Shown: piece by piece, positions 222-20,101 of the stretch
Layout of the letters: every line of letters starts with the position of its first letter
How positions within the stretch are numbered: position 1 is the stretch's first letter
IMG/VR virus record: IMGVR_UViG_3300034062_000533
Coordinates: 1-20,159 of that record
Direction: 5' to 3' (one strand)
Length of the DNA: 20,159 nucleotides
Source of the DNA: a virus
The notes under the pieces: generated by a model
What the model was told of the DNA's origin: nothing
Databases searched by the model: none
Seen by the model: only the letters and a program-made list of their open reading frames with translations
Made by a program: the position numbers and the translations under genes

Positions 222-370
222 AGATTCTCCTTTTGTAGATCTTTGATTCTACACCTAAACAATATAAATCTACATATTAGGGAAAGTCCTTAGTAAATAT
301 TCTACATTTATTCTACATTTCTGGTATTCTACATCTAAGCAATATTGCTTATTTTGAAAGGGAAATCAAA
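222..370. promoter_or_regulatory. Divergent early control region with operator-like repeats
   Basis: This gap separates the leftward repressor from the rightward early operon. The hexamer TCTACA occurs at 248-253, 269-274, 301-306, 312-317 and 328-333, and inverted (TGTAGA) at 234-239. The inverted copy and the first direct copy form a dyad with an 8-base spacer (234-253). A 20-base segment at 246-265 is repeated at 326-345 with two mismatches. A perfect 16-base palindrome, TAAGCAATATTGCTTA, lies at 336-351. I infer repressor operators overlapping divergent promoters. No consensus -35/-10 pair is convincing; TGGTATTCT at 322-330 is a possible extended -10 for the rightward operon and TATATT (complement of 263-268) a weak leftward -10. 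Confidence 0.65.
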
Positions 371-571
371 ATGGAAAGAGTAGTTAAAAAACAAGTTGTT
401 GGCTCAGTAACAATAGGTCGTAGCGGCACAAAAAATCATAGAGCAACAATGACTTATTATGAAGATGGTTCAAAATATCTCATGATTCATTGTAGTTGTC
501 GTGGCACAGCAAGTGGATATGCTCAACATACTGCACGATTTTCTTTAATTGAAGGTAATTGCAAAAATTAA
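371..571 (+). CDS. Hypothetical protein, first early gene
   Basis: A 66-residue basic protein of unknown function and the first gene of the rightward early operon. The ATG follows an AAGGGA ribosome site. The N-terminus is Lys/Arg-rich (ERVVKKQ), the middle looks like short beta strands, and there is one HCSC pair, which could bind a metal only if it dimerises. I recognise no family. Its place directly behind the operator region suggests it is expressed first after infection or induction. It is followed by a GC-rich hairpin. Confidence 0.7.
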   Translation: MERVVKKQVVGSVTIGRSGTKNHRATMTYYEDGSKYLMIHCSCRGTASGYAQHTARFSLIEGNCKN

Positions 572-1005: not shown

Positions 1006-1541
1006 TGTCGAACTATATGGAACTTAGAGCTGTAGATGTATCGGATAAGGTAGAAAAGAAGAATGGTTTGTCTTATCTGTCTTGGGCATGGGCTGTAGAT
1101 ACATTGCTACAAAAAGACCCGACTGCTACTTGGTCTTATGGTCAGCCTGTCATGTTCGGTGAGACTGTGATGGTGTTTTGCACAGTCAATGCCTTTGGTA
1201 AGTCGATGACCGCACAGTTGCCTGTAATGGATTATCGGAATAAGGCGATTCCAAACCCAGATGCATTTGCAGTCAATACAGCGATGCAACGATGCCTAGC
1301 CAAGGCGATTGCTCTGCATGGGCTTGGATTGTCTCTCTATGTCGGTGAGGATCTATGGGATGACATTGACCCGATCAATGCCGATGATTTAGTAGCCAAG
1401 ATCCTGGCTGCCAAAGACCTACCAGAACTAAAGGTTAGTTTTGCTCAAGCCTACAAAGAAGTTGCCAAAGACAAAGAGGCGATGAAGAAGGTCAATGATG
1501 CTAAAGAGACCAGAAAGGCACAGTTAAGTGAAACTAGCTGA
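1002..1541 (+). CDS. Single-strand annealing protein (DUF1071/Sak-like recombinase)
   Basis: A 179-residue protein whose N-terminus carries the hallmark NGLSYLSWAWAVD (residues 21-33) followed by a beta-rich core (WSYGQPVMFGETVMVFCTVNAF) and the conserved stretch ending in CLAKAIALHGLGLSLYVGEDLW. These features match the DUF1071/Sak family of the RAD52/ERF superfamily. Such proteins coat single strands and anneal complementary DNA during phage recombination and concatemer formation. The basic, helical C-terminal tail (from about residue 130) is less conserved and may bind partners. A YqaJ-type exonuclease lies about 1.2 kb downstream in the same operon, completing a Red-like pair. A GGAGAAG ribosome site precedes ATG 1002; ATG 1005 is an equally possible start. 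Confidence 0.85.
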   Translation: MMSNYMELRAVDVSDKVEKKNGLSYLSWAWAVDTLLQKDPTATWSYGQPVMFGETVMVFCTVNAFGKSMTAQLPVMDYRNKAIPNPDAFAVNTAMQRCLAKAIALHGLGLSLYVGEDLWDDIDPINADDLVAKILAAKDLPELKVSFAQAYKEVAKDKEAMKKVNDAKETRKAQLSETS

Positions 1542-1725
1542 TGAGCAGCCAGATAATGTTTGTTTTGATTGTGGGGAACAATGGGGTCTTAAACCCCTCA
1601 AGAATGGGGAGAGTCATAGGATATGGATAGACCAATGCGATGTTTGTTCAAGGCTCACAGCCGTAGCCGACAGTTCGGAATATGGATATATGAAGGAAGG
1701 ATGGGATGGAAAGAAAGTGGTGTAG
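1528..1725 (+). CDS. Small CxxC zinc-ribbon-like protein (GTG start)
   Basis: A 65-residue protein with two Cys pairs, C12/C15 and C37/C40, spaced as in a zinc ribbon. It begins with GTG and overlaps the end of the annealing-protein gene by 14 bases; no in-frame ATG exists before residue 55, so GTG is the likely start, with AGAAAGG some 10 bases upstream. It is the first of several small Cys-pair proteins in this operon. Possible roles are nucleic-acid binding or protein bridging. Function is not recognised. Confidence 0.65.
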   Translation: MKLADEQPDNVCFDCGEQWGLKPLKNGESHRIWIDQCDVCSRLTAVADSSEYGYMKEGWDGKKVV

Positions 1726-1846
1726 TTCTTGTCAGGTTGATCGACCAAAGGCTGGTTTTAAGTTGGTAACTACTGGGTCTAAGGTTAAAAGATGGAAATG
1801 TGAATTTTGTCTAAAAAGAGAAGCGGAGAGAAAGTATGGAAAATAA
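1706..1846 (+). CDS. 46-residue CxxC zinc-ribbon-like micropeptide
   Basis: A short ORF, ATG 1706 to TAA 1844-1846, preceded by GAAGGAAGG. It encodes a very basic peptide with C6/C9 (WCSSC) and C32/C35 (KCEFC), a spacing suited to one zinc ion, and a Lys/Arg-rich C-terminus. It overlaps the previous gene by 20 bases and the next by 11 bases, in different frames. The paired cysteines and ribosome site make it a convincing gene despite its size. It is likely to bind nucleic acid, by inference. Confidence 0.65.
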   Translation: MERKWCSSCQVDRPKAGFKLVTTGSKVKRWKCEFCLKREAERKYGK

Positions 1847-2090
1847 ATTTTTTGATAAGGCTAGAAAAATAGCCAAGCAGCTTGATGAAGGAGTTTATGT
1901 ATATACACCATCATCAACCGATATTACGATTCGGTGGCGCAAGATGTATGGTTATGTTCCTGCAAGTGAACAAAAGAAGTATCAGAAGAAATGGGCAGAG
2001 TTTCGGGCTTTAGTTAGCCGAACTTTAGATGATGTAGAGCAGCCAGAAATGCCAGGAGTTGTAGCATGGAAAAAGTGGCAAAAGTCCTAG
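1836..2090 (+). CDS. Hypothetical early protein, 84 aa
   Basis: A basic protein of 84 residues. The N-terminal helix (FFDKARKIAKQLDEG) is followed by a probable beta segment (VYVYTPSSTDITIRWRK) and a Lys/Gln-rich helix (SEQKKYQKKWAEF). It looks like a small phage protein of the early region, with no domain I can name. The start lies inside the end of the zinc-ribbon gene, with a GGAGAG ribosome site. The end overlaps the start of the next membrane peptide. Confidence 0.75.
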   Translation: MENKFFDKARKIAKQLDEGVYVYTPSSTDITIRWRKMYGYVPASEQKKYQKKWAEFRALVSRTLDDVEQPEMPGVVAWKKWQKS

Positions 2091-2182
2091 TAGAGATCGG
2101 CATTTACTTTTTCTTGCCTTTTGCGATAATAAAGGTATCTTGGGACTTATCGAAGTCCTGGGTAGAGGAGTTGATTAAATGA
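2066..2182 (+). CDS. 38-residue single-span membrane peptide
   Basis: A short ORF starting at ATG 2066 with CAGGAG upstream. The product has a short N-terminus, one hydrophobic span (VLVEIGIYFFLPFAIIKV) and an amphipathic tail (SWDLSKSWVEELIK). Its stop overlaps the next ATG as ATGA (2179-2182). It is the second membrane micropeptide of this operon after the one at 608-721. They do not look homologous. Function unknown. Confidence 0.6.
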   Translation: MEKVAKVLVEIGIYFFLPFAIIKVSWDLSKSWVEELIK

Positions 2183-2403
2183 GAAATAAGCATTGCATGG
2201 AGGCATTCTACAAGACCCTAAAGGAAGTCGATATTCCTACAGGTCAGTCCATGGTCTGTGAGCATTTTTTTGCTTGTGGATGGGATGCAGCCATTGATGC
2301 TTTGTCGCAAGCATACCAGAGGCAGTTTGAAGAAGATGGAGTCAATACTCAGCTTATTAGGCGAGAACCACAAGAGCCACCACCAGACGATGACCAAGAA
2401 TGA
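2179..2403 (+). CDS. Hypothetical early protein with acidic Pro-rich tail
   Basis: A 74-residue protein: the N-terminal two thirds are probably helical (FYKTLKEVD; CGWDAAIDALSQAYQRQFEE), and the tail is proline-rich and acidic (EPQEPPPDDDQE). The segment CEHFFACGWDAAIDA resembles small phage proteins whose ACGWDAA-like motif recurs in early regions, but no function is assigned. It is coupled to the upstream gene by ATGA and overlaps the next gene by 14 bases. Confidence 0.7.
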   Translation: MRNKHCMEAFYKTLKEVDIPTGQSMVCEHFFACGWDAAIDALSQAYQRQFEEDGVNTQLIRREPQEPPPDDDQE

Positions 2404-2596
2404 ATGGTATCCAGTTTGTTTCCATAACCGATATGAATACAAAAAATGGCAATACTATCAAAAATGGGGAGACGAGGTGGTGTCGGTTTGTGATGATTGC
2501 ACCGATGAATATCAACAAAAGATGAAAAGAGAGGATAGATGCTTTATGGCAGAAGCCATGAAGAAATCTAGCAACAGCAAACGATATGCAGAATGA
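2390..2596 (+). CDS. Small Cys-rich hypothetical protein, 68 aa
   Basis: I choose ATG 2390 because upstream in-frame codons (from 2258) lie inside the previous gene and read as low-quality sequence. The 68-residue product is rich in Tyr, Trp and Lys and has C10, a C34/C37 pair (VCDDC) and C51, so it may bind zinc in the manner of its neighbours. The ribosome site is weak, so translation probably depends on coupling to the previous gene. Confidence 0.6.
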   Translation: MTKNEWYPVCFHNRYEYKKWQYYQKWGDEVVSVCDDCTDEYQQKMKREDRCFMAEAMKKSSNSKRYAE

Positions 2597-2756
2597 ACCA
2601 GTATCTCAGGCAGTTATGATTATTACTGAGACCGAACCTTGTCGGTTTTCGGTTGAAATCGAGGGTAGCGAAACTTCTTTAGAAGTAGCGCAGATTATGG
2701 TAAAGTTTCTAAGTGATTGCTTAGAGCAGATCCACAGGGAAACAAAAGTGCATTAG
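2586..2756 (+). CDS. Hypothetical early protein, 56 aa
   Basis: A short ORF from ATG 2586 to TAG 2754-2756, overlapping the previous gene by 11 bases. It encodes an acidic alpha/beta-looking peptide: a beta-like segment (CRFSVEIEGSETSLEV) followed by a helix (AQIMVKFLSDCLEQIHRE). It fills the gap before the exonuclease gene. No family is recognised. The ribosome site is poor (GCAAACGAT), so coupling is likely. Confidence 0.55.
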   Translation: MQNEPVSQAVMIITETEPCRFSVEIEGSETSLEVAQIMVKFLSDCLEQIHRETKVH

Positions 2757-2775
2757 TTTTTAGGGGAATGGGGAA

Positions 2776-3384
2776 ATGGAACAAAGAACAGAAGAATGGC
2801 ATAAGGCTAGGCTTGGCAAAGTAACCGCTAGTCGGGTTGCTGATGTATTGGCTAAGATTAAGACAGGCGAGGCAGCAGCTCGTAAGAACTACAAGATGGA
2901 GTTAGTAGTTCAGAGATTAACTGGTCAGCCAGGCGAGTCTTTTACCAATGCTGCTATGGAATGGGGAACTGCCACAGAACCACAGGCTAGGATGGCATAC
3001 GAGGCTCATACAGGCACTTTTGTCGAGGAGGTGGGGTTTATAGACCACCCGACAATAGAAGGCTTTGGATGCTCTCCTGATGGGGTTGTGGGCGATGGGT
3101 TGATTGAGATCAAATGCCCGAATACAGCCACCCATATTGAGACAGTCTTGGAGAATAAAGCTCCAAGTAAATACATCCCACAAATGCAATGCCAGATGGC
3201 AGTTACAGGTGCGAAATGGTGCGACTTTGTATCATTCGATCCGAGAGTGCCAGAGGACTTGCAGTTGGTAGTAGTAAGGGTTGATAGGGATCAGGAGTAT
3301 ATCGACTCAATGGAAGTAGAAGTAAAGCAGTTTTTAGATGAGGTCAAAGAGTTATTTATTTTGTTAAAGGAGAGAAAGAAATGA
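2776..3384 (+). CDS. YqaJ/lambda-type viral exonuclease
   Basis: A 202-residue nuclease of the PD-(D/E)XK superfamily. Visible motifs are the N-terminal RTEEWHKARLGKVTASR (4-20), with WxxxRxGxxTAS typical of YqaJ; GTATEPQAR with E68; the catalytic SPDG with D102; EIK with E111 and K113; and the conserved Gln helix PQMQCQMAVTG (135-145). It would chew 5' strands from double-stranded ends, giving 3' overhangs for the annealing protein encoded at 1002-1541. The length matches the family. A GGGGAA ribosome site precedes the ATG. The stop overlaps the next start as ATGA. Confidence 0.92.
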   Translation: MEQRTEEWHKARLGKVTASRVADVLAKIKTGEAAARKNYKMELVVQRLTGQPGESFTNAAMEWGTATEPQARMAYEAHTGTFVEEVGFIDHPTIEGFGCSPDGVVGDGLIEIKCPNTATHIETVLENKAPSKYIPQMQCQMAVTGAKWCDFVSFDPRVPEDLQLVVVRVDRDQEYIDSMEVEVKQFLDEVKELFILLKERKK

Positions 3385-3638
3385 CCTATGAAATGAAAGA
3401 TGGTAATTTTGTATTGTTTAAGAATGATCGGAAGAAAACCGATAAGCACCCAGACCTTAGTGGCTCGATTATGATAAATGGGGTAGAGCATTGGTTTAAT
3501 GCTTGGACTAAAGAGGGAAAGAAAGGGAAGTTTATTTCTGGGCAGATTGGCGATCCCAAGAAGGCTGGATTTACTCCGAGAGGTAATGATGAGATGCCAA
3601 AGAGTAGTGGCATTCAAGATGACGATATTCCATTCTAA
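3381..3638 (+). CDS. Small conserved phage protein downstream of exonuclease
   Basis: An 85-residue protein with a beta-rich N-terminal two thirds (DGNFVLFKNDRKKTDKHPD, then SGSIMINGVEHWFNAW, then KGKFISGQIG). The tail is disordered and acidic, ending in DDDIPF. Small proteins of this style (FKNDKK...HPDxxGSIMxNGxExWxxAW) recur beside phage recombination genes. The fold and the acidic DDDIPF tip recall single-stranded-DNA-binding proteins, whose C-terminus recruits partners. That SSB-like role is inference. It is translationally coupled to the exonuclease. Confidence 0.75.
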   Translation: MTYEMKDGNFVLFKNDRKKTDKHPDLSGSIMINGVEHWFNAWTKEGKKGKFISGQIGDPKKAGFTPRGNDEMPKSSGIQDDDIPF

Positions 3639-3649
3639 GGAGAATGAAA

Positions 3650-3787
3650 ATGAAAAAAGCGATTCTAGTAGTAGTAACAAATATGTTACTAATTGGTAGT
3701 GCCTTTGCCTGTCAGACACAGACTCTAGTAGTCGGTGGTAAATTACAGGTATGCACTATCTGCGGTTCAGTAGTTAGCTGTATGTAA
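3650..3787 (+). CDS. Exported 45-residue Cys-rich peptide
   Basis: A short ORF with AAGGAG seven bases before ATG 3650; the in-frame ATG at 3644 is too close to it. MKK is followed by a hydrophobic core (AILVVVTNMLLIGSAFA) that ends in AFA-C21, a signal peptidase I site or an imperfect lipobox. The mature part would be 25 residues with C21, C35, C38 and C44, including a CTIC pair. It is presumably exported to the periplasm, where two disulphides could form. Function unknown; superinfection exclusion or an envelope effect is conceivable but not shown. Confidence 0.7.
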   Translation: MKKAILVVVTNMLLIGSAFACQTQTLVVGGKLQVCTICGSVVSCM

Positions 3788-3793
3788 ACCCCC

Positions 3794-3827
3794 AATGAGA
3801 TCGGCATACGAGGTGCAATGCCTCATT
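3794..3827 (+). other. Imperfect hairpin in the leader of the nuclease-like gene
   Basis: AATGA (3794-3798) pairs with TCATT (3823-3827) and GGCAT (3803-3807) with ATGCC (3818-3822), with a 4-base bulge and a 10-base loop. It lies in the 81-base gap before the gene at 3869. It could be an RNA structure that controls that gene, or processing of the upstream message. Confidence 0.4.
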
Positions 3828-3872
3828 TCCCTAAGGAGTGCCACCCCCCTTCCGATCAGGGTGGCATTATGA
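3795..3872 (+). CDS. Possible 25-codon leader peptide
   Basis: A mini-ORF from ATG 3795 to TGA 3870-3872. It starts 8 bases after the stop of the exported peptide and its stop overlaps the next ATG as ATGA, exactly like the real junctions in this operon. There is no clear ribosome site, so it would depend on re-initiation. It spans both hairpins of this gap. It may be a leader peptide, or only a structured untranslated leader. The sequence alone cannot decide. Confidence 0.3.
   Translation: MRSAYEVQCLISLRSATPLPIRVAL
3839..3866 (+). other. Perfect 8-bp hairpin just before a start codon
   Basis: TGCCACCC (3839-3846) is followed, after a 12-base loop, by GGGTGGCA (3859-3866). It ends two bases before ATG 3869 and its right arm contains the only ribosome-site-like bases (AGGGTGG). 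Folding would therefore hide the start of the next gene. No T-tract follows, so it is not a normal terminator. Confidence 0.5.
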
Positions 3873-4300
3873 ATGGCTCGATGTCTTACTCAGAGCGACA
3901 AAAAGTAAAGAATAGGGCTGAGTTCTTATTTGAGTATTACTGCGCTGAAAAAGATTACCAGGTTACTAGGGTGGGGTTTGATGAGAAGAATGGAAATGTA
4001 GATAACTTTTACTATCTAAATCCGATATTAAGAAACTTACCCGATTATGTAGTCAATACCGCTAATGGCACTTGGGTAGTGATGGTGAAAGGCACAGCGA
4101 ATATCAAGCAGAAAGAGATTGATCTTTTGCCAAAGTTGATTGAGTGCTTTCATAGTGATAGAGCAAAACTTATTTATGCGTTTTGTTTCTTGGGAAAAGA
4201 ACCAATACTAATTTTTCCACAGAAATTAGAAAGTCTGTATAGAAATGCCAAAGATAAGCAATGGCAAGATGGAGTTGTTTATCGGTCATTGGAGATATAA
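3869..4300 (+). CDS. PD-(D/E)XK-like protein, possibly degenerate
   Basis: A 143-residue protein from ATG 3869; an upstream ATG at 3818 would add 17 Pro/His-rich residues of poor quality. Its layout matches small endonuclease-like folds: an N-terminal helix with a conserved-looking Glu (NRAEFLFEYYCAEKDYQVTRVGFD), then LPDYVV (a PD), then about ten residues on WVVMVKG, where the D/E of the (D/E)xK is replaced by Met. The rest is alpha/beta (AKLIYAFCFLGKEPILIFP). It may be an inactive nuclease relative or have moved its acidic residue. It is the last early gene and its 3' end overlaps the lysozyme gene by 15 bases. The family call is inference. Confidence 0.7.
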   Translation: MNGSMSYSERQKVKNRAEFLFEYYCAEKDYQVTRVGFDEKNGNVDNFYYLNPILRNLPDYVVNTANGTWVVMVKGTANIKQKEIDLLPKLIECFHSDRAKLIYAFCFLGKEPILIFPQKLESLYRNAKDKQWQDGVVYRSLEI

Positions 4301-4729
4301 GTTTGATTCGTCTTGTCTGCGAATTGTTAGTCCTCGGAACACTTTGCCACCAGCTTTATTCCATCGCAGGAACTCTTTAGCTGCACCAAACACATCATTT
4401 CTGTTGTGTTTTTGTCGTAAGGTAGATGATTGTAGGTTGCCTAGCCCAACATTAAACGCAAAGCTGACGAGTGCATCAAAGCGAGACTGAGTAAGATTAT
4501 TAGGGCATAGTCGTAATACCCCTCTTTCAAAGCGTTGCAGATCTTTTTTAAGAAGCTCATCTACCTCATCCATCGTAAAGGTTCTAAACCACTCTATAGG
4601 CAGAGTTTTACCATCGCCTATCAAATGCCCTACACCCACAGTCCAAAGCCCTATAGGGTCTTGGTATGGCTTTAGACGCACCCCTTCGTGGTGCTTAATC
4701 ATCTTAATGCAGTCTTTTGATACTTTCAC
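4286..4729 (-). CDS. T4-type lysozyme (endolysin)
   Basis: A 147-residue glycoside hydrolase family 24 muramidase. The catalytic triad of T4 lysozyme is present with correct spacing: E15 (HHEG), D24 (YQD) and T30 (LWTVGVGH). Later segments (QSRFDALVSFAFNVG; FLRWNKAGGKVFRGLTIRRQDE) match the substrate-cleft C-lobe. It cuts the glycan chains of peptidoglycan to release progeny. It has no signal or anchor sequence, so it needs the holin encoded just upstream. The start is GTG at 4727-4729, overlapping the holin stop as GTGA; the next ATG would leave too few residues before E15. It is the last gene of the late operon. Confidence 0.93.
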   Translation of the reverse strand: MKVSKDCIKMIKHHEGVRLKPYQDPIGLWTVGVGHLIGDGKTLPIEWFRTFTMDEVDELLKKDLQRFERGVLRLCPNNLTQSRFDALVSFAFNVGLGNLQSSTLRQKHNRNDVFGAAKEFLRWNKAGGKVFRGLTIRRQDESNLYLQ

Positions 4730-5211
4730 CGCTTGGCAAATGCTTGAGATCCGAACCAGAAAGCAACAATACTAGACCAAATGGTGATGGTTTCTTCTGA
4801 CCAGAGAATGTCTAGGGCTTGGTCAAATGGCACAGAATGATGCCAAGCATACCAGAATCCTGCTACTTCTACAAATAGGAAAATAGCGAACATCCCATAA
4901 GTAACAGTAGGGCGAACCATGGCTCTAGCATTAATCACCCATTTGTCTGCACCTTTGGCTAAGTCTGTGTCATGCTGATACAGAGCAATCTTTTCATCCT
5001 TAAATGCTTGGATTTCGATTTGATCTGTGCGAATCTCCTCGACCCTAGCTTGGGCTAAATAACCTTCTCTGGCTAGTTCTAATTCTCTCTCAGTCTGTAA
5101 TCGAGCCATTTCTAGCTCATGCTTTTTGTCAGATCTGTCTTGGAAGAAGTCTAAGAACTTAGGCAGACCACCAGCAAGAAAAGAAAGGAGTGTAGAGACT
5201 AGAGTAATCAT
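4726..5211 (-). CDS. Holin of the GTA 3-TM type
   Basis: A 161-residue membrane protein: an N-terminal hydrophobic segment (3-20), a charged helical stretch likely to form a coiled coil (28-66, rich in E/R/L), then two further hydrophobic spans (103-123 and 141-157). It ends in WFGSQAFAKR. The VRPTVTYG motif before the second span and the WFGSxAF end are typical of the holin family first named from gene transfer agents. It would open the inner membrane to let the lysozyme out. It is coupled to the lysozyme (GTGA) and to the gene upstream (ATGA). Confidence 0.8.
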   Translation of the reverse strand: MITLVSTLLSFLAGGLPKFLDFFQDRSDKKHELEMARLQTERELELAREGYLAQARVEEIRTDQIEIQAFKDEKIALYQHDTDLAKGADKWVINARAMVRPTVTYGMFAIFLFVEVAGFWYAWHHSVPFDQALDILWSEETITIWSSIVAFWFGSQAFAKR

Positions 5212-5417
5212 TTCTTAAATACCAACTCAGCTAACCAAGTCATAAATCCACCGAATACAGAAGCTGCCCCCATAATAGCCCAGAGACTACCTTTAGATCT
5301 TTCAGCCATAGCGACCAATTTCTTAATATCGGACTCCATTTGATTGACTTTGGTCTCTAAGTTTTCTACTGCATTAACGAGTTTTCCATACTCAACTGGA
5401 TTAATATCTGCCATCAT
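5208..5417 (-). CDS. Coiled-coil plus TM lysis-accessory protein
   Basis: A 69-residue protein: residues 10-38 form a heptad-like helix (KLVNAVENLETKVNQMESDIKKLV), followed by one membrane span (44-66) and a KK tail. The architecture resembles XhlA-type haemolysin/holin partners. With the 3-TM holin directly downstream, a role in the lysis complex is likely, for example as a second holin or holin regulator. Two tandem ATGs exist at the start (5417 and 5414); both overlap the upstream stop. Confidence 0.7.
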   Translation of the reverse strand: MMADINPVEYGKLVNAVENLETKVNQMESDIKKLVAMAERSKGSLWAIMGAASVFGGFMTWLAELVFKK

Positions 5418-5602
5418 TTGCCTCTGAACACTTGTAAAGATTTGGCTGGATCGTCAAAATCAGAATTGCACTCATTGCAATGTTTAGAATTAACTTCTTG
5501 GTCGCTAATGTCAAAATTACAATATGGGCAAGATAAATGCACTATTGTTTCCTTTTGAACAATAATGTCATTTTCGACAATTGATGGTATAACGATCTTC
5601 AT
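5414..5602 (-). CDS. Small zinc-ribbon protein
   Basis: A 62-residue protein. I choose the ATG at 5602 because it forms a TAATG junction with the upstream stop and has AAAGGA eight bases before it; an ATG 21 bases earlier lies inside the upstream gene. C25/C28 (CPYC) and C42/C45 (CNEC) form a classical zinc ribbon. The N-terminus is a hydrophobic beta segment (KIVIPSIVE). Function is unknown. It sits between the tail adhesin genes and the lysis genes. Confidence 0.65.
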   Translation of the reverse strand: MKIVIPSIVENDIIVQKETIVHLSCPYCNFDISDQEVNSKHCNECNSDFDDPAKSLQVFRGK

Positions 5603-5784
5603 TACCACTTTCCTTTTGGGCAATTTAGTTGTTTAATTTTGACCTTTAATGGCATATGACATCCACAAAGCTCACACAATTTTCTTTCTTTGACATAGTG
5701 CTCACAAAGATTACAAACATTCAATCTTTCAATCTGAACTTTTCTTGATGTAAATATTGGGATTTCTCTATTAGTAAGCACCAT
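5602..5784 (-). CDS. Cys-rich metal-binding protein ending in CPKGKW
   Basis: A 60-residue protein with C24, C27, C37, C40, C42 and C55 in the order CxxC, CxxCxC, then CPKGKW at the end. Small phage proteins with this exact layout, including MxxK between the last cysteines, recur next to tail or lysis genes and are thought to bind zinc or iron; their role is unknown. It overlaps the adhesin gene by 14 bases and is followed by a TAATG junction. Confidence 0.75.
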   Translation of the reverse strand: MVLTNREIPIFTSRKVQIERLNVCNLCEHYVKERKLCELCGCHMPLKVKIKQLNCPKGKW

Positions 5785-6829
5785 AAATCGTGCCTACAAC
5801 AGATAATGTCAAAGATCCTGCATTAATAGTTACTGCTCTGCCACCTGCGCCACCAGCACCGCCTGTTGTGCTTCTTGTCTCACCTGATGCTCCAGCAGAG
5901 CCAAAATCACCACCACTACCGCCTACACCGCCTACTTGTCCGTTTTGAACTCCTGCTGATCCACCTCCGCCAGCTCCACCAGAAGATCCTGCTCCCCCTC
6001 CTGTTGGAGTTGAGTAACTATAGCTAGAACAAAATCTTATACATCCTCCAAGACCGCCAGCACCACCACCCCAAGATCTTCCTCCTCCTCCGCCACCACC
6101 GCCAGAAGATACTGTAGTTCCACAGCCACCTAAAAGAATTAATGCTCCACCGCCACCACCGCCACCACCACCAGCAATAGTTCCATTGTTTGTAATGGTC
6201 ATATTGGCATTTATCGTAATAGCAGAACCTCCTGCTCCACCAGAACCTCCACCAGTATCAATACATAAACTTCCTAAATTATCTGCTCCCATTCCACCAG
6301 AGCCACCGCCACCAGATATTGTTCCGTTGTTGGTAAGATTTACCTGTGCTGATGTTTGAATTGCAACTCCACCTGGTTTACCATTTGCATTTCTAAATGT
6401 TCCTGCTGTGCCGCCAAGACCTGTAATTAATCCATTGTTTGTAACATTGACAATAGAGCCAGTAGGCATTGTGCCAACAACAAATGCTGCTGTAGCTGTT
6501 GATGTAGAAGATACTGTTATACCACCATTGATAGTAATATTTGCTAACAATGGTGTAGTGCCATTCCATCCAGCACTTGTAGCCCTAGTGTTTACATTGT
6601 AATTACTAGTATTGGTAGAAATGGTTGCATTAAATACATATGGCTTTAGTGCGCCATAAAACTGATTAATACTGATTTGTCCTGATGTGGGAATATTATC
6701 GTTAGCTGGAATGCCATCTGCCACAAATGAACCAGCTCGATAGTATTCACTAATGCTAATAGGATTAGTGCCACCAAATTCTGTTTGAATGGCAGAAAAT
6801 GATATTGAGCCTGAGCTTGGTAAAGCCAT
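5771..6829 (-). CDS. Polyglycine-rich tail adhesin
   Basis: A 352-residue protein. The N-terminal segment (residues 4-31, SSGSISFSAIQTEFGG then NPISISEYY) and its echo (48-59, TSGQISINQFYG) are attachment motifs common to the start of phage tail-tip adhesins. A beta region follows with repeats of VNVTNNGxIxGxGG (127-140, 163-176, 210-223). From about 172 to 331 it is dominated by runs of glycine, the pattern of the polyglycine-II sandwich in T-even-like gp38 adhesins. It ends GTIYGAY. It is likely the receptor-binding tip. It joins the upstream fibre gene by a TAATG overlap. Cysteines C189, C235, C263 and C267 lie in variable loops. Confidence 0.8.
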   Translation of the reverse strand: MALPSSGSISFSAIQTEFGGTNPISISEYYRAGSFVADGIPANDNIPTSGQISINQFYGALKPYVFNATISTNTSNYNVNTRATSAGWNGTTPLLANITINGGITVSSTSTATAAFVVGTMPTGSIVNVTNNGLITGLGGTAGTFRNANGKPGGVAIQTSAQVNLTNNGTISGGGGSGGMGADNLGSLCIDTGGGSGGAGGSAITINANMTITNNGTIAGGGGGGGGGALILLGGCGTTVSSGGGGGGGGRSWGGGAGGLGGCIRFCSSYSYSTPTGGGAGSSGGAGGGGSAGVQNGQVGGVGGSGGDFGSAGASGETRSTTGGAGGAGGRAVTINAGSLTLSVVGTIYGAY

Positions 6830-7338
6830 TATGGAGTTCCGTAAGCTGTAATGTTTCCAGAAACAATCAAGTTACCAGAGGAGTCTAAAGAAGCCTTAGT
6901 AACACCTGAATACTTGAACTTGAGGACATTGCTTTCAACAACATAAGTCCAATTGCCGACATTTAACGATGTGCCAGTAATAGATGTTGCGCTAAGAGTA
7001 GATGGTGTTGTGTTACCAATCTGAGTAGAGTTGATTGATCCACCAGTAATTGTTGCAGCAGAACTAGAAAAAGTAACACCGCTAATCGTGCCACCTGTTA
7101 TAGCACCGCTTGTCATTGTATTAGCAGACATACTTGTGCCAGTAATTGTGCCACCTGTAATCTTGGCAGCAGTCATGGTATATGTGCCATCTCTTAAACC
7201 ATCGCCACAATCTCTAATCTGAGCCATCATGTCTCGGAGAGTATCGTTTACTGCTGATGGGAGCATCCCCTCTGGCGCACCATCTGGAGGTGTCGCATTG
7301 TTATTAGCAGGGGTTAGAGAATATTTTGTATATGCCAT
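6829..7338 (-). CDS. Short tail fibre protein
   Basis: A 169-residue protein. The N-terminus (NNNATPPDGAPEGMLPSAVN then LRDMMAQIRD, about residues 12-44) is a conserved virion-attachment segment of phage tail fibres. Next comes a stretch of imperfect ITGGTITG-type repeats (about 60-125), as in trimeric fibre shafts. It ends in a small beta-rich domain (NVGNWTYVVESNVLKFKYSG). The shortness suggests an adaptor fibre that carries another protein; the adhesin encoded directly downstream, with a TAATG junction, is the natural partner. Confidence 0.8.
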   Translation of the reverse strand: MAYTKYSLTPANNNATPPDGAPEGMLPSAVNDTLRDMMAQIRDCGDGLRDGTYTMTAAKITGGTITGTSMSANTMTSGAITGGTISGVTFSSSAATITGGSINSTQIGNTTPSTLSATSITGTSLNVGNWTYVVESNVLKFKYSGVTKASLDSSGNLIVSGNITAYGTP

Positions 7339-7346
7339 GATTTTCC

Positions 7347-8897
7347 TTACTGTTGTTCTGTCTGAAATTCACCAGATAAAAGACCTCTTAGTCCTGTAAT
7401 AGGAACATTATAAGTTCTTGGTTGGAGCTCTGGTGCTCTACCCAAGCGCATCATATCTGCTAGGTTCTCAATTGCTGATCTTCGCATAGCGGTTGCACCC
7501 ATTCTTGATGCTGCTGCACCTGCTGCTAATGGAGCACCTAAAGTCGGCTCATAAGCAATAGCACCACCTGAGAATATGCCTGATACAACTCCTGTTGGAG
7601 CAAAGCGACCATAGAACTTTAAGAGGTTCTGAACTGTGCCACCTTTTGCTGCTTCTTCAATTGCTGTTTGCTCTTGCTTAGTAAACAGGCGCATTTTTTT
7701 CTCATTCTTAGCTAACTGTCTTAACTGTTGAGCCATTGAGTTTTCTTCGCCTGATGCAGTAAATTTAGACCGATCTAACTGAGCATTGTTGAGCATATCC
7801 TCAAATACTTCTGCTTTCTTGAGTCTGCCATAAGAGGTTCGAGCATCTTTCCACAGATTGATCGCCTCCTTGCTTCCACCGACTACTGCGGAATCAGGAG
7901 CATTTAGAATGGCTGAGTCGAACTCATCGACCAAGATAGAGGCTAGTCTGCGCTCTTGTGGATCTGTGCTTGCTTGTGCGCCTTTGATGATCTTTCTAAG
8001 AGCTTGTAGTTCGGTAAAGTCTTTAGGAGTTGCAGGATTGGTTAGTTCCTCTAGAGCCGATGCAATCTTAGGATATGCCTTGGGTGTATAACCCTCTGAT
8101 CTGAGATCCTTGCCAATCCGATCCATATTAGCAATAAAGCGATCCGAGTCTAGTAATACACCAGATTTTTGAGCCTTGGTGAACAGATTTGTAGATTCTT
8201 GGGCTAATTGCTCTTGTGTCGGTGCGCCTTTAGCCTTGCGAGAGACTGTTGCGCCAAATGGTGCAGCAGTTGTAACTCCAGCGATCATACCTGCTAATGG
8301 ACTGCCTGTCGCTTCTGTAACATACTGTGCTGTTGCTGCCGATGGAGCTGCTGCTGCGACCTGTGCTTTAGGAGCTTCTGCCAACCGCTTAGACACTTCT
8401 CTAGTAACAGGACTGACTGCTTGCTGTCCTAAACGCATTAAGGCTGGCAATTGGGCTAGTGTAGAAGTAATACCACCTGCACCTGCCTCAATCATTCTTT
8501 CGCCTCGGCTTTGTGGCTCTGCCATACCCATTTCTGTCATGGCTCGGCTTGCGACTTGGCTAGGCATCTGTAATTGTGGAATCTCTGTGCCTGCGACCCG
8601 ATTAACACCACCAGAAATCATATTTACTAGAGTGTTAAGAGCATCACCGATTGGCAAAGCCATAGAGCCTACTAGAGCACCAGGAGCACCAGCTACCGCA
8701 CCACCAAGAGCTGCACCAGGAACAGTCTGAGCCATGCCTCTAGCAGCAATCTCTGCTGTGCGAGCCATTGTGCCTTTTTCTTTCTTTGGCTCGACATTGG
8801 CTTCGTCATACAGTTTCTTAGCAGCTTTATTGATTTCTGCTTCCGACATTGAGTCAGGAAACTCGACCTGCCCTACTTTTGGGATGTCAATAATCAT
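7347..8897 (-). CDS. Putative internal virion (ejection) protein, 516 aa
   Basis: A large protein. The N-terminal 33 residues hold a motif found at the start of many phage virion proteins (GQVEFPDSMSEAEINKAAKKLYDE). Next comes a long Gly/Ala-rich hydrophobic region (about 55-95), a helical middle (SRGERMIEAG; ALEELTNPATPKDFTELQALRKI) and another Gly/Ala hydrophobic segment near the end (GVVSGIFSGGAIAY onward). Alternating hydrophobic and helical parts in the gene block between tail hub and fibre suggest a protein stored in the head and ejected with DNA, but no enzyme motif is visible. The start overlaps the upstream stop as ATGA. Confidence 0.7.
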   Translation of the reverse strand: MIIDIPKVGQVEFPDSMSEAEINKAAKKLYDEANVEPKKEKGTMARTAEIAARGMAQTVPGAALGGAVAGAPGALVGSMALPIGDALNTLVNMISGGVNRVAGTEIPQLQMPSQVASRAMTEMGMAEPQSRGERMIEAGAGGITSTLAQLPALMRLGQQAVSPVTREVSKRLAEAPKAQVAAAAPSAATAQYVTEATGSPLAGMIAGVTTAAPFGATVSRKAKGAPTQEQLAQESTNLFTKAQKSGVLLDSDRFIANMDRIGKDLRSEGYTPKAYPKIASALEELTNPATPKDFTELQALRKIIKGAQASTDPQERRLASILVDEFDSAILNAPDSAVVGGSKEAINLWKDARTSYGRLKKAEVFEDMLNNAQLDRSKFTASGEENSMAQQLRQLAKNEKKMRLFTKQEQTAIEEAAKGGTVQNLLKFYGRFAPTGVVSGIFSGGAIAYEPTLGAPLAAGAAASRMGATAMRRSAIENLADMMRLGRAPELQPRTYNVPITGLRGLLSGEFQTEQQ

Positions 8898-10096
8898 TCT
8901 ACTTTTCCTGTAGCTGGATTAAATCGCTTAACTCCACCTGCCTTTGGCATAGGAGCAATTGGGCTAATTCTGTAGAAATCCACAATGCTAGACATTTCAG
9001 GGTTTTTACCTAATATATCTAGTCGTCTATTGTATTCGCCTACAGTATATTGAGCTACTCTTTTGGAGGCATTGGCGATCTGTTTGATTTCAGCAGGTGT
9101 TAGGCTGTCAATGTCGCCTGAGAATGCTCTCTCAGCCAATTTGCCTTCTGCTTCTGTAATCTGACCTTCGCCTCGCATTGACTTACGACCTTGTAGTGTA
9201 AGTTCTGCAAAGCCTCGGATGGCTTGACGAGTATTAGCAATAGTTTCTTCTGTATCTCGACCAGTAACACCTAAAGTAGATCCTAACTGAGCCAATCGCA
9301 TTCTCGGTGTAGCCATTGTGCCAGCGATAACCTTATTGGTATCTACTGCGCTAATGACTCGATCCGCAGCATCAATTTGTAATACAGAACCTTGAGCTTG
9401 TGCTTGAGCATCCTTAAGAACAGGCGCAATCTGTGCGAGTCCTTTGCCTGTGTCCACAGAAATATTTGTGGAGGGAGTTTTTCGTGCAAGGAAGTCAGTA
9501 TAAGTTCCTTTGAATCCATCTCTGACTGCAAATTCATACTCCTTTACCGAGGATGGTGCTTTATCTTCTTTAGAAACTAGCTTTAGTGCCTCAATTGGGC
9601 TTTCTAATGCTGCTGCTTCTACTAATTTGTTTTCATCAATTGTCAATTTTGTTGGTAAATTAGCTCGGAGTGCTGCAACAGTTTCAGGAGCAGCCATATC
9701 GCCACCAAACTCAGGGCGAGACAACATCTCTAACTGTGAGCCTTGACTTGTAGCCATAGGAATTTGTTGTGGAGTTCTTGTAAATGCTTGACTTGCTAGT
9801 TCTCTAGCCCGTTGTTTGCGCTTAAAATCCTCCAACTGCATACCAGTTACCATCTGCTTGAGAGTGCGGTCAAATGCTTGGTTATAGCCTTCTGATCCTG
9901 CTCCCAATGCACCAGCCAATACTTGACCTGTGCTGATAGGCTGTCTTGTTTGACCTGTCATAGACAGAGCTGCAATAGCTGCATTTAATAGAGCTTGTTG
10001 CCCTGCATTAGACTGCATTCTTTGTTGCTCGGCAGGACTAATAAACTGAGAGTAGTCTGGTTGCTGTCCGAATAAAGCTGATAGATCAATTGCCAT
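8894..10096 (-). CDS. Putative internal virion protein, 400 aa
   Basis: A mostly helical, Gln/Ala-rich protein. The N-terminal DLSALFGQQPDYSQFISPAEQQRM leads into an Ala/Gly helix (LLNAAIAALSMTG) and coiled-coil-like parts (QAFDRTLKQMVTGMQLEDFKRKQRARELA). The C-terminal half (SMRGEGQITEAEGKLAERAF; YNRRLDILGKNPEM) resembles the end of ejection proteins found in other short-tailed phages: a pattern of GxGxxTxxE followed by a YNRRLDxL helix. I infer a structural or ejection role from this and from the neighbours. No enzyme motif. Confidence 0.7.
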   Translation of the reverse strand: MAIDLSALFGQQPDYSQFISPAEQQRMQSNAGQQALLNAAIAALSMTGQTRQPISTGQVLAGALGAGSEGYNQAFDRTLKQMVTGMQLEDFKRKQRARELASQAFTRTPQQIPMATSQGSQLEMLSRPEFGGDMAAPETVAALRANLPTKLTIDENKLVEAAALESPIEALKLVSKEDKAPSSVKEYEFAVRDGFKGTYTDFLARKTPSTNISVDTGKGLAQIAPVLKDAQAQAQGSVLQIDAADRVISAVDTNKVIAGTMATPRMRLAQLGSTLGVTGRDTEETIANTRQAIRGFAELTLQGRKSMRGEGQITEAEGKLAERAFSGDIDSLTPAEIKQIANASKRVAQYTVGEYNRRLDILGKNPEMSSIVDFYRISPIAPMPKAGGVKRFNPATGKVE

Positions 10097-10099
10097 AAT

Positions 10100-11008
10100 T
10101 TATCCTAATAAAGAATTTGGATTTCTTGCTCTTTGTAAAGCTAATAAATTGTATAGACCTGAGTAATCTACTGCGCCAGCAGGTTTATATGTTGAGCCAC
10201 CCATTTGTGGCATCTGCGGCATTTGTTGTTGTGGTCTTTGTCCAGCACCTAATAAGCCCATTCCTAATCTTGCTCCCATTAAGGCTTGGCTAGGTGTTAA
10301 AAATGGTTTAGATAGTGATGGTAATGTAGATGTTAAACCTGTGCCACCTAGTTCTGCTGCCGTATATCCTTGAGCAATATTTTGTGCAATTGCTGCCTCA
10401 GACAATCCAGATGTTGCCAAATTAGCTACATCGGCTGCAACAAAAGAATCTACACCTGTTGCTGTAAGGTTCTGAGCAATTGTTGCTGCATCAAATCCAT
10501 TGGCTGCTAGATTGGCTGCATCTGCTGCTACTGTATATGGTAGGGCTTGAGTTACTGCTTCTGCTGCTGCTGTTTCTGCTGCTCCAGACAATAATGCTGC
10601 TCCAATTGTGTCTGCTGCTGCTGCTTCACTAGCAAGAGTTGCAAGACCAGTTTCTGTTGCGCCAGTAAATGCTGCTGCGCCAGCACCTTCTGCTAACGCT
10701 GGTGCTAAGTATGGCGCTGCTACTGCTGCTGTTATAAGAGCAGGAGAAATCCATCCACCAGGTAGGTTTTGATTAACAAATTCATCTACATCTGCTAAAC
10801 CACCACCAATGGCTTGACCAACATCTTCTATACCGCCAAGAATACCACCGCCACCACCAGATGTTCCTAAGACATCAGAAACTGCATCTAATGGATTTCC
10901 ACCGCCACCGCCTTGTGGCTTAATCTTGCGATCACCAATATGCTCAAAAGCACCTTGTGGCAAGTCTGGAATGTCCATCAATGCACAGGATCGGTTATTA
11001 AATCTCAT
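10100..11008 (-). CDS. Ala/Gly-rich putative virion protein with tandem repeat
   Basis: A 302-residue protein. Two polyglycine patches lie near the start (33-37 and 51-55), followed by a strongly alanine-rich helical region (88-160) that could insert in a membrane. Residues 160-185 and 190-215 are a tandem repeat (VAADxANLAxxG then AIAQN-type cores) with a 30-residue period. The C-terminus has Pro/Gln/Met-rich repeats (PQQQMPQMPQMGG). It lies between the GNAT-like gene and the 400-aa protein, so a virion or ejection role is likely. Start ATG 11008 overlaps the upstream stop (ATGA); ATG 10978 is an alternative. Confidence 0.65.
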   Translation of the reverse strand: MRFNNRSCALMDIPDLPQGAFEHIGDRKIKPQGGGGGNPLDAVSDVLGTSGGGGGILGGIEDVGQAIGGGLADVDEFVNQNLPGGWISPALITAAVAAPYLAPALAEGAGAAAFTGATETGLATLASEAAAADTIGAALLSGAAETAAAEAVTQALPYTVAADAANLAANGFDAATIAQNLTATGVDSFVAADVANLATSGLSEAAIAQNIAQGYTAAELGGTGLTSTLPSLSKPFLTPSQALMGARLGMGLLGAGQRPQQQMPQMPQMGGSTYKPAGAVDYSGLYNLLALQRARNPNSLLG

Positions 11009-11412
11009 AATTTATGCTCTATCAATATTTGTTTATCTACAAATCCAAGCCTGTAAGTTAGTCTTGCTAGAGACTGCCTGACATAACCCTGAACCTTGGT
11101 TGCTCCAAAAGCCTTAAAAAGTAAACATAACTGTTTATATGCTTCTTTGTTTGTTACAAACTTACCGCCATATGCACAAATAAAAGCTACTTTTTGTTTA
11201 GGATACTGAACAAAAGATATAACTATGACACCTTGTATTTTATCTTTATCTATACCTACAAACAAATCTAGCAGCCCACTTTCTAAGGATTTTTTAAGAT
11301 CCTGAGAATCATACTCATCACACCCACTTTGCTCTATTGCTTGGTCAATATAACCCTCTATTACAGACCATTCAGCCTGTATTTGTTGAGGGCTATATCG
11401 TCTTACTAGCAA
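11005..11412 (-). CDS. GNAT-like fold protein (TTG start)
   Basis: A 135-residue protein with an acetyltransferase-like layout: an N-terminal helix (EWSVIEGYIDQAIEQ), the strand pair FVGIDKDKIQGVIVISFVQY, a central KVAFICAYGG strand, a helix (NKEAYKQLCLLFKAFGATKVQGYV), and the closing RLTYRLGF, which matches the end of GNAT domains. The acetyl-CoA loop (Q/RxxGxG/A) is not clear, so catalysis is doubtful. Phage virion clusters often hold such a protein near the internal proteins. The first codon is TTG, directly after the TAA of the upstream gene and in the same frame; no in-frame ATG exists nearby. Confidence 0.7.
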   Translation of the reverse strand: MLVRRYSPQQIQAEWSVIEGYIDQAIEQSGCDEYDSQDLKKSLESGLLDLFVGIDKDKIQGVIVISFVQYPKQKVAFICAYGGKFVTNKEAYKQLCLLFKAFGATKVQGYVRQSLARLTYRLGFVDKQILIEHKL

Positions 11413-12327
11413 TTAGAAGAATCCACCACCTAATAATCCACCCAAGGCAGCTCCACCTAGACCACCATAAAGACCGCCTATTTGTGGAAATGCTTGACCT
11501 AAAGCATATCCACCTAAACCACCAGCTAATGCGCCACCAAGAACACCTGCGCCTGTATTTTGATAGGTTGGGTATGATTGGGTTGTAGTGCCATAACTTC
11601 CAAGTGGAGTTCCATAGACAGATGACAAGAAACCTTGCAATTGCTGATATGGTAATTGTTGATTGAACTGATATTCTGCTAACTGTTGCTGTAGTGGCTG
11701 TGATGCAATTTGTTCTTGAGCAGCACCAACTTGAGCCAATGTCTGAGATGGCAAGAATTGCTGACTGTAGAACTGAGGTGCTAAACCAGCTAACTGAGCC
11801 TGTTGCATTTGTGCCTGTTGTTGCAATGCTCTTTCTTGTTGGTATTGAGTTCCAGCAATGTTAGAAGTAATATCCCCTAGAGACCGACCATAAGCCTCTG
11901 TAGCCGTTCCCAATGCTCTTTCCATAGAACCACTACCCAATCGACCAGACTTGCTGTAAAGGCTCGAAATGCCTGGCAATACGGATTGGCTAAATTGTTG
12001 GGTAAGTGGGCGAGTTGCAGCCTCTATCATCTGTTGTTGATAGGGGTTTGCGTTTAAAAAACCGCCTGCTGCTGTCTGACCGACCTGACCTAATGATGTT
12101 TGATAAGCCTGTTGAGCTTGTTGCAACATAGAATTTGGCTGTGTTGCCAATGCCTCTTGTTGTTGCAATGCAGTCAATGTTTGCTGTGATGGGCTTACAT
12201 AAGTTTGACCAGGGAAAAATTGTGGCTGATTAGTTCCAAAAAATAGATTTTGAGCTTGCTCAAGTCCTGTTTCTAAATATGGTGCTAATAGTGGATCTAT
12301 CTTCGAGGTTGTGGTGGTAGTTGCCAT
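11413..12327 (-). CDS. Gln-rich putative internal virion protein, 304 aa
   Basis: A protein very rich in glutamine. The N-terminus (KIDPLLAPYLETGLEQAQNLFFG) has the PxxxPYLxxxxxxA pattern seen at the start of phage internal or ejection proteins. A long Gln/Ala helical region follows (about 55-235). A Gly/Ala-rich hydrophobic C-terminus (GAGVLGGALAGGLGGYALGQA, then GGLGGAALGGLLGGG) looks membrane-active. It is probably ejected with DNA or lines the internal channel, by inference from composition and place. It ends in TAA immediately followed, in frame, by the TTG of the next gene. Confidence 0.65.
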   Translation of the reverse strand: MATTTTTSKIDPLLAPYLETGLEQAQNLFFGTNQPQFFPGQTYVSPSQQTLTALQQQEALATQPNSMLQQAQQAYQTSLGQVGQTAAGGFLNANPYQQQMIEAATRPLTQQFSQSVLPGISSLYSKSGRLGSGSMERALGTATEAYGRSLGDITSNIAGTQYQQERALQQQAQMQQAQLAGLAPQFYSQQFLPSQTLAQVGAAQEQIASQPLQQQLAEYQFNQQLPYQQLQGFLSSVYGTPLGSYGTTTQSYPTYQNTGAGVLGGALAGGLGGYALGQAFPQIGGLYGGLGGAALGGLLGGGFF

Positions 12328-12335
12328 AGTTTTCC

Positions 12336-13130
12336 TTATCCTACGATAATATATTTATAAGTCATACCTGATACTGAATTAGCAGGATGACTAATGGTTG
12401 CGCTTCCTGCTGTTGTTGCCGATATATAAGGCATTGTAAAAAGATTACTTGTGTATCCATTCGATGACAGATAAGACAATGTTGCTATCATTGATGGAAT
12501 TGCTGGTCTTGTTGGGCTTGTTCCTGCTGGTAAACTTTGCAATGAAACATCTGTGCTGTCTGTAGACCACATGATTTGCACATAATCATTTTTTTCTAAT
12601 GCAATAAAAAAGTTTAAGGCTGCAATTAAATGCCCATCTACAGATCCATGCCTATTTGGAACAGAATATCGACTGTTGCTATTTGCTATATCTGTGCCAT
12701 TTTTTCTAAACCAAATGTCAATGTCATGAATAGAGCTATCTATATTTACAAACTGTGCAGAAAACTGAACATTGTATAAACCAGAATAGCTGACATTTAG
12801 CCTAGAACTATTTGATAACGATGCACCAAGACTGTAATCTGTGGTGTCATATGTAATTGCATATGCAGTAGTAGTGTTTGCTGCTGTTTGATCTGTAGAA
12901 TCTTGAACAGCTAAATATGGGTAAAAACTACTAGCAGAAACATCGTCTGCTGGAACTAAGATAATTACAGAATCTGCACCAATCCGAGCATCGGTAATGG
13001 TTGTTGTAGATGCACCACCTGTCGCTAAAGTAACAGAACCAGTATTGTTGGTCTTGCCATTCATAATCCCATTGACTACTTCGGCAATTCCTCGTTGGTC
13101 TGCTCCAAAAGGAGGCAATACTCTATACAT
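12336..13130 (-). CDS. C1q/TNF-like fibre protein
   Basis: A 264-residue protein. The N-terminal PPFGADQRGIAEVVNGIMNG is a conserved start of phage fibre-like structural proteins, followed by a beta segment (TGSVTLATGG then TTITDARIGADSVIILVPAD). The middle (about 80-210) resembles a trimeric C1q/TNF jelly roll: LNVSYSGLYNVQFSAQF, then DIDIWFRKNGTDIANS, then FFIALEKNDYVQIMWS, in the usual order of strands. It ends MTYKYIIVG, a beta strand typical of this class. It is likely a capsid decoration or tail fibre. The start joins the upstream gene by TAATG, with AGGAA upstream. Confidence 0.75.
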   Translation of the reverse strand: MYRVLPPFGADQRGIAEVVNGIMNGKTNNTGSVTLATGGASTTTITDARIGADSVIILVPADDVSASSFYPYLAVQDSTDQTAANTTTAYAITYDTTDYSLGASLSNSSRLNVSYSGLYNVQFSAQFVNIDSSIHDIDIWFRKNGTDIANSNSRYSVPNRHGSVDGHLIAALNFFIALEKNDYVQIMWSTDSTDVSLQSLPAGTSPTRPAIPSMIATLSYLSSNGYTSNLFTMPYISATTAGSATISHPANSVSGMTYKYIIVG

Positions 13131-17858: not shown

Positions 17859-18046
17859 TATTCTTCCTCAGATTGTTCTACAGTTTCTTCTTCTTGCGGA
17901 GCAGTAACAATGGCATACCAATCGTCAAAACGCTTTTGCTTGATTGCCTCAATCTGCTCGTCAGACATCCCATGATTTTCAGGCAATACAATGGCATCCT
18001 TTAAGGTATAACCATCTTGCGAGATTTCAAAGTCTATTTTAATCAT
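17858..18046 (-). CDS. Small acidic hypothetical protein, 62 aa
   Basis: An acidic protein of 62 residues: an N-terminal beta hairpin (KIDFEISQDGYTLKDAIVLPENHGMS), then a helix (DEQIEAIKQKRFDDWYAIV), then a disordered Glu-rich tail. Small proteins like this, with DGYxxxDAIVLP followed by a helix containing R(F/W)DxW, commonly lie beside fibre genes and may chaperone or link them. That role is inference. It joins the beta-solenoid gene by TAATG. Confidence 0.7.
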   Translation of the reverse strand: MIKIDFEISQDGYTLKDAIVLPENHGMSDEQIEAIKQKRFDDWYAIVTAPQEEETVEQSEEE

Positions 18047-18047
18047 C

Positions 18048-18434: not shown

Positions 18435-18443
18435 GATATTTCC

Positions 18444-19064: not shown

Positions 19065-19073
19065 ATCTCTCTC

Positions 19074-20035: not shown

Positions 20036-20052
20036 TTACCACCTATATAGAA

Positions 20053-20077: not shown

Positions 20078-20101
20078 ATTCTACAGACTATCTAGATTTT
20101 A

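Follow-up and report, generated by a model that had tools for sequence, protein, structure and literature searches.

The hexamer TCTACA is probably the half-operator of a small autoregulating repressor of the Cro kind, and it forms an array at candidate divergent promoters of a freshwater, uncultured phage. The DNA analysed, called the window here, is a stretch of 20,159 nt from IMG/VR record IMGVR_UViG_3300034062_000533. The presumed reader of the boxes is a single-domain HTH protein of 65 amino acids encoded on the minus strand at 24-221, identified from its open reading frame, PHROG matches, an AlphaFold2 model and Foldseek. Since the hexamer is kept throughout the genome, within genes too, at about 2.4 copies per kb, the protein probably visits all of it. 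From comparisons of sequence, we infer promoter activity, binding of the boxes by the 65-amino-acid protein, repression, and titration or braking of transcription.

Six boxes lie beside the HTH gene. Box 1 reads TGTAGA on the plus strand and is thus a minus-strand copy (234-239); it directly adjoins the Shine-Dalgarno-like element AAAGGAGAA of the HTH gene (225-233, minus strand). The five plus-strand copies are box 2 (248-253), box 3 (269-274), box 4 (301-306), box 5 (312-317, 11 bp from box 4) and box 6 (328-333). An earlier note on this DNA had listed all six, with correct coordinates, and had described their clustering as far above chance. Shuffling bears this out: six boxes fall within 134 bp (219-352), where the shuffle mean is 0.14 and the maximum across 5000 dinucleotide shuffles is 3. 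The background is not ordinary, because the window holds 51 copies where shuffles predict 12.1, and TCTACA is therefore not limited to the control region. The 45 further copies of TCTACA or TGTAGA outside the array (1031-20085) lie nearly all within genes; their rate corresponds to about 0.25 per 112 bp, so the cluster is still exceptional.

The positions of the boxes match those of two candidate promoters. Boxes 1 and 2 form a 20-bp inverted pair, TGTAGA-N8-TCTACA (234-253). Box 2 overlaps the candidate −10 element TAGAAT (246-251, minus strand) of a leftward promoter, P_L, which we propose to be autoregulated and which was recognized from the box-to-TAGAAT spacing in relatives; box 3 sits at its −35 position. 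Box 4 occupies the −35 position of a candidate rightward promoter, P_R, and box 6 overlaps its candidate −10 element, TATTCT (325-330, plus strand), which is preceded by TGG and was assigned from the sequence and from the spacing in relatives. Over 56 distinct control regions, a box followed after 16 or 17 bases by TAGAAT was counted 50 times on the leftward strand, and TCTACA followed after 17 or 18 bases by TATAGT or TATTCT was counted 44 times on the rightward strand. This recurrent spacing suggests that boxes lie over both the −35 and the −10 position of a pair of candidate divergent promoters. A generic promoter search over 180-700 picked up neither P_L nor P_R; its three hits lay elsewhere, with 3.0 expected by chance. 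P_R would serve a divergent early operon, whose first gene (371-571, plus strand) is an open reading frame that varies among relatives and is followed by the gene for the Sak annealing protein (1002-1541). Family searches with the product of the 371-571 gene gave no HTH or repressor match, and an Rfam search of the window gave no match.

Conservation of the boxes together with the repressor was one of the tests proposed in the earlier note, and its outcome did not refute the operator reading. All 60 distinct control regions upstream of homologues of the 65-amino-acid protein keep at least three exact boxes (six in 27 regions, five in 20, four in 11 and three in 2). In the set of 56 distinct regions, which was drawn from 81 of 85 control regions, at least four boxes are present in 55, compared with 0.11 boxes expected; the four regions shorter than 150 nt were omitted here, and likewise from the 60-region counts and the palindrome and repeat counts given below. 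Box spacings recur across the 56 regions, at 14 for inverted boxes, 10/11 and 20/21 for direct copies, and 21 for boxes of opposite orientation, and an inverted box pair with a gap of 7-9 bp is found in 38 of the 60 regions. In some relatives box 3 reads TCTACA, and in many others it reads TGTAGA at that position. Although box 3 flips in this way, the one-change intermediates TGTACA and TCTAGA occur in none of the 56 regions.

These features can be accommodated by a simple scheme. The boxes would cover the −35, −10 and start regions both of P_L, for the repressor's own gene, and of P_R, for the early genes. They would consist of an inverted pair next to the repressor's own start codon and direct copies spaced 10/11 and 20/21 bp apart, and the protein would fill the array in adjoining positions, repressing both its own gene and the early genes. 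The orientation of a box would be free, such that a box could flip without loss.

The proposed reader resembles known Cro repressors. The earlier note had labelled it Cro/YdaS-like; the YdaS family PF15943 scores 24.8, below its gathering cut-off of 30 bits, and the Cro label fits better. Matches to PHROG repressor families are weak (best E 1.1e-5). The AlphaFold2 model (pLDDT 84.6) predicts an all-helical Cro fold, for which the best Foldseek match is Xfaso 1 Cro (3bd1; TM 0.79-0.80, rmsd 1.2, E 0.012). N15 and P22 Cro are within the first eight rows of the same search, this group having TM values of 0.65-0.80 to the query, and no Foldseek match reached E<=0.001. A search of PDB sequences gave E values of 0.2-0.28 at best. 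Homologues were found at 70 IMG/VR loci in a first search, and a search for distant homologues, covering the best 80 of 95 loci, added 14. The protein was not found in named phages at E<=0.001, and none of 49 pattern matches in genome contigs was confirmed as an HTH homologue by a method of limited distance reach. In the structural relatives Venkman, MW202462 and MW202710, there are at most two boxes within 120 bp, and TCTACA is not among the listed top hexamers. The likeness to the Cro repressors of N15, P22 and Xfaso 1 extends to the length of the protein, the predicted HTH fold, the position divergent to early genes, and a candidate operator over the gene's own candidate promoter. Unlike in those phages, no opposing CI-type gene lies across the control region within the window, and where they have one to three palindromes, this phage has many hexamers in either orientation, with further copies genome-wide.

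Three other elements lie in the control region. A 20-base direct repeat (246-265 and 326-345) noted earlier is present, with 18 of 20 positions matching, but is not part of the conserved design. Outside the box, the flanks of the first and last TCTACA match at 12 of 14 positions in the window, and none of the 55 other distinct regions exceeds 8 matches out of 14. The flank match is specific to the window sequence, and the repeat was rejected as a conserved unit. A perfect 16-bp palindrome, TAAGCAATATTGCTTA (336-351, plus strand), precedes the first early gene, in what is presumed to be the leader of the early transcript. Comparable stems are found in 38 of 56 distinct regions; the sixth pair is A-T in 25, G-C in 9 and G-T in four, and this paired change suggests an RNA hairpin in the early leader.

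The third element is a central dyad, TTAGGG-AAAGT-CCTTAG (277-293), which lies between the candidate promoters and is a possible second operator; its AGGG/CCT core is present in 54 of 60 distinct regions. At 17 bp, this dyad, located centrally in the array, is closer to a conventional Cro-sized site than the boxes are. PY54 Cro, which is related to N15 Cro, binds a single 16-bp palindrome according to the available text of PMC4488713, and the central dyad resembles that palindrome in kind and approximate size. The Cro-like protein might thus bind the dyad as a dimer, leaving the boxes to a second DNA-binding protein of phage or host, a reading that we consider unlikely, yet the strongest of the alternatives. 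A possible second protein of this sort exists, a protein of 84-86 amino acids (window 1836-2090) that co-occurs as strictly as the HTH protein. It was found in 11 of 11 sequences from phages with the HTH gene (HTH+) and in none of nine from relatives without it (HTH−), six of the nine being partial. In the BLAST clustering used for this comparison, the HTH protein joined 7 of the 11, and a profile finds it in all 11. Because it shares the distribution of the HTH protein, the 84-86-amino-acid protein is also a candidate TCTACA reader. The dyad itself is the less constant element, however. In L096 and L097 a different dyad has been substituted with the presumed recognition helix unchanged, half of the dyad is gone in L106, and G010, L447 and L489 are without it, but three to five boxes persist in all six. 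Moreover, it is the inverted box pair, not the dyad, that adjoins the ribosome site of the HTH gene.

The boxes had been presented as a feature of the control region. They do cluster there, but the same hexamer is enriched throughout the genome. No hexamer is more common than TCTACA in the window or in six of seven complete relatives, and in the remaining one, G007, it ranks third; these seven genomes carry 76-104 copies per 35-36.5 kb. Counting TCTACA elsewhere in the genome, a check suggested at the outset for intergenic regions, gave 71-92 coding and 4-10 intergenic copies per genome outside the array in eight genomes, at similar density. In the window, 43 boxes lie in predicted coding sequence, compared with about 17-19 expected from synonymous shuffles, and in the coding part of G001-G007 the observed counts are 51-94 and the expected counts, from synonymous codon shuffles, 24-31. 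Pooled over eight genomes, 626 copies were observed and 229.2 expected. Sense and antisense copies are equally in excess (305 observed vs 110.0 expected and 321 vs 116.6; ratios 2.77 and 2.75), as are copies in early, late and other genes (ratios 2.65, 2.96 and 2.74); these pooled, orientation and gene-class counts omit G007, G010 and G011. Several reading frames contribute. The excess in coding sequence amounts to about 37-63 boxes per genome in eight complete relatives and to 21-25 in three with diverged repressors.

The enrichment is centred on the exact hexamer, which occurs at 2.66 times expectation, whereas its 18 one-mismatch neighbours occur at 0.41-1.49 times. The ratio alone is not extreme, since GGCGCA is also enriched, at 2.45 times expectation, and within the window TCTACA ranks second or third by z among hexamers. 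Spacing between dispersed boxes is near random, with 142 neighbours within 80 bp vs 141 expected (CV 1.08, KS p 0.06). Both the one-mismatch comparison and the neighbour-spacing count omit G010 and G011, as does the nine-genome conservation test described next. A stoperator-like orientation, a preferred spacing and a concentration in early or late genes were each sought for the dispersed boxes, and none was detected.

Dispersed copies are also unusually well kept between relatives. At orthologous codon sites with identical amino acids, TCTACA or TGTAGA was kept at 904 of 1297 sites across nine genomes, compared with 478.6 expected from codon-specific conservation, the genome pairs being directed and non-independent. 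The resulting ratio is 1.89, as against 1.16 for all hexamers; its z of 19.4 is the highest of 1659 hexamers (the next is 10.9), and by ratio TCTACA ranks ninth of 1262. Among 11 genomes, 50 of the 51 pairs with at least eight sites lie above the all-hexamer ratio. When ten genomes were paired in listed order, with G013 left over, 86 of 109 boxes were kept vs 56.3 expected (binomial p 4e-9, or 1e-5 if the expectation is raised by 1.15). This supersedes a count on five disjoint pairs chosen after viewing the pairwise results (103 of 125 vs 57.2). Among HTH− phages, 78 of 180 boxes were kept vs 69.5 expected; few pairs had enough sites and two of the three that did lie above their all-hexamer ratio (G024/G026, 6 of 9 vs 2.6), so the HTH− side is thinly sampled. 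Judged against codon-matched expectation, the dispersed in-gene boxes are conserved more than codon constraint predicts. That the candidate operator word is both the commonest hexamer and an unusually conserved one suggests that the same protein visits the genome at large. The operator array proposed in the earlier note is thus partly supported: the boxes are conserved with the protein and a Cro fold is predicted for it, but the repeat is not conserved, Cro is a better label than YdaS, and the boxes extend beyond the control region.

Further evidence comes from relatives that lack the repressor. In the 11 loci examined among the sisters L263-L276, Sak is 72-75% identical, and ten of the 11 carry in the place of the HTH gene a gene for a 91-amino-acid nuclease (for example, L264:7104-7379), which we take to be VRR_NUC-like; L270 has another gene there. 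None of the 11 has more than two boxes within 115 bp upstream of Sak. The HTH protein was not found at E<=1 in any of six whole HTH− contigs, whereas the same query matched 4 of 14 others. The ratio of observed to expected TCTACA is 1.68-3.32 in 15 HTH+ sequences and 1.82-3.30 in the 12 HTH+ loci of at least 9 kb. Among 35 HTH− loci of at least 10 kb it is 0.00-2.33 (median 1.03), 30 of them being below 1.68 and none having a cluster of more than two; the 14 closest HTH− loci have ratios of 0.57-1.62, and the five loci at 1.68-2.33 have small counts (largest 15 vs 8.8). These 35 are the loci without the HTH protein among the 37 nuclease-query loci that reach 10 kb, every one of which was counted, and this figure is preferred to an earlier one from 25 of 80 loci hand-picked for length before counting. 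Across 13 HTH− sequences, there are 209 copies vs 169.5 expected, and of 1649 hexamers TCTACA has the largest z for the difference from the eight pooled genomes. In the Sak and structural-protein trees alike, presence of the HTH gene forms one split, and the difference between HTH+ and HTH− phages therefore represents one evolutionary contrast. Fragments with structural genes (35 of 80 loci, at least 8.5 kb) were omitted from the contrast because the HTH gene status of their phages is not established; TCTACA ranks first in 14 of these, and three show little excess (L146, 10 vs 8.3; L173, 9 vs 7.5; L167, 14 vs 8.8).

The other two of the 37 loci, L351 and L357, encode a distant Cro-like protein (E 1e-8 and 6e-11) with a different recognition helix, its gene following the nuclease gene. 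Neither has a TCTACA array or an enrichment of boxes (11 observed vs 8.3 expected and 6 vs 5.0), and no operator word of their own was found for these proteins. Another helix without the array fits a link between the helix of the 65-amino-acid protein and TCTACA.

The genome-wide excess might instead reflect sequence habits of the host, such as codon context, mutation or a host motif, and be unrelated to the array. Other hexamers are enriched too, and HTH− relatives may infect other hosts, since they differ in hexamer avoidance. This explanation is doubtful because the excess peaks at the operator hexamer itself, spans several frames and both strands, and is conserved at given positions. It also finds no counterpart in bacterial genomes, which were obtained for this composition control with a fucosyltransferase query (matches of 30-37% across many phyla). 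Relative to its reversed spelling, TCTACA is about 2.4-3.5 times as frequent in the window and in nine phage contigs, and, by reading of the tables, at most about 1.3 times as frequent in 398 genomes from the family of a Cupriavidus, 119 from the phylum of an Acidimicrobiaceae genome (the actinobacterial-phylum sample) and 11 others. Of these 528 sampled genomes, 526 are distinct (G030 and G039 each appear in two sets), and none of the 526 shows a comparable TCTACA excess.

A replication origin offers another way to read the array, with TCTACA iterons recognized by an initiator and the dispersed copies serving as secondary binding or priming sites. We regard this as improbable. Among the matches listed, TCTACA arrays are found in unrelated viral contigs without the HTH protein (the first search pattern was too loose), which suggests that arrays have been built from TCTACA on more than one occasion and sustains the iteron reading. 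Arrays phased at 9-11 bp are seen in L567, L573, L574, L576, L582, L583, L607 and others, several of them, by reading, near primase-like genes, and in the window the array adjoins a recombination operon. Against an origin, no initiator was found among the window proteins scanned, a subset of the genes; the boxes fit divergent promoters; and Sak-carrying relatives without the HTH gene have no box cluster. That TCTACA acts chiefly as a −35 element, the cluster being several overlapping promoters, is very improbable: boxes do lie 16-18 bp before −10-like hexamers in most regions, and TCTACA shares four of six bases with TTGACA, but the inverted pair, the 10-bp tandem copies, the flips and the intragenic copies on both strands are left unexplained.

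If TCTACA is a half-operator of the Cro-like repressor, the dispersed copies call for a use of their own. Their lack of a preferred orientation or spacing is more in line with counting or coating than with halting polymerase at particular places. Most likely, they would serve as a sink, tying repression to how many phage genomes the cell contains, or would exert a weak brake on transcription genome-wide. Our suggestion, a tentative one, is that the excess sites titrate the protein, so that repression is lifted as copies of the genome build up and copy number is sensed, or that they let it cover and silence the entire phage genome much as a miniature nucleoid protein would; of the possible uses, we favour titration. 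If true, these uncultured freshwater phages, in which one tiny protein may act on the whole phage genome rather than on one switch, would offer a simple system in which to study copy-number sensing by titration, or the silencing of an entire genome by a phage product. Regulatory sites could then limit which codons are used in many phage genes, with consequences for the reading of synonymous conservation in phages.

The closest kind of known system is that of dispersed operators or stoperators, compared with which the sites described here are orientation-free, mostly intragenic and denser. To our knowledge, a minimal single-domain repressor with a six-base site genome-wide would be the densest dispersed-operator system known. 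The C1 operators of P1 are scattered and asymmetric, and the Cox and Apl boxes of P2- and 186-type phages form arrays phased at 10-11 bp; the likeness to both is one of description. In cluster A mycobacteriophages such as L5 and TipsytheTRex, asymmetric stoperators occur at the promoter and scattered over the genome. As described in the available text of PMC9283540, there are more than 20 sites of 13 bp, which lie in promoters and in short gaps between genes, follow the direction of transcription and are read by a two-domain protein of 183 residues. The phages studied here share with them asymmetric candidate sites scattered over the genome, but the sites are of 6 bp, lie mostly in genes and have no orientation, and the protein has 65 residues. 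In SPbeta, the SPBRE repeats were later shown to be sites for MrpR/YopR; the text available from PMC10516654 describes a 15-bp element at the promoter regions of ten named genes and a recombinase-like repressor. In a restricted literature collection, no paper was found on the hexamer as a phage motif, and none of those listed for overrepresented hexamers and repressor sites was relevant.

Some minor observations concern the wider set of contigs. HTH− phages avoid hexamers containing GATC or ATCG, while CTGAAG and GTCCCA are avoided by HTH+ phages, which suggests that the two groups differ in restriction pressure or in hosts. A tRNA-Thr (TGT) gene is present in two of seven complete relatives (L083:5780-5853 and L084:13314-13387). 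In an unrelated contig, at L515:2840-3000, TGTAGA-N8-TCTACA and similar inverted pairs lie between two divergent genes that look HTH-like by eye.
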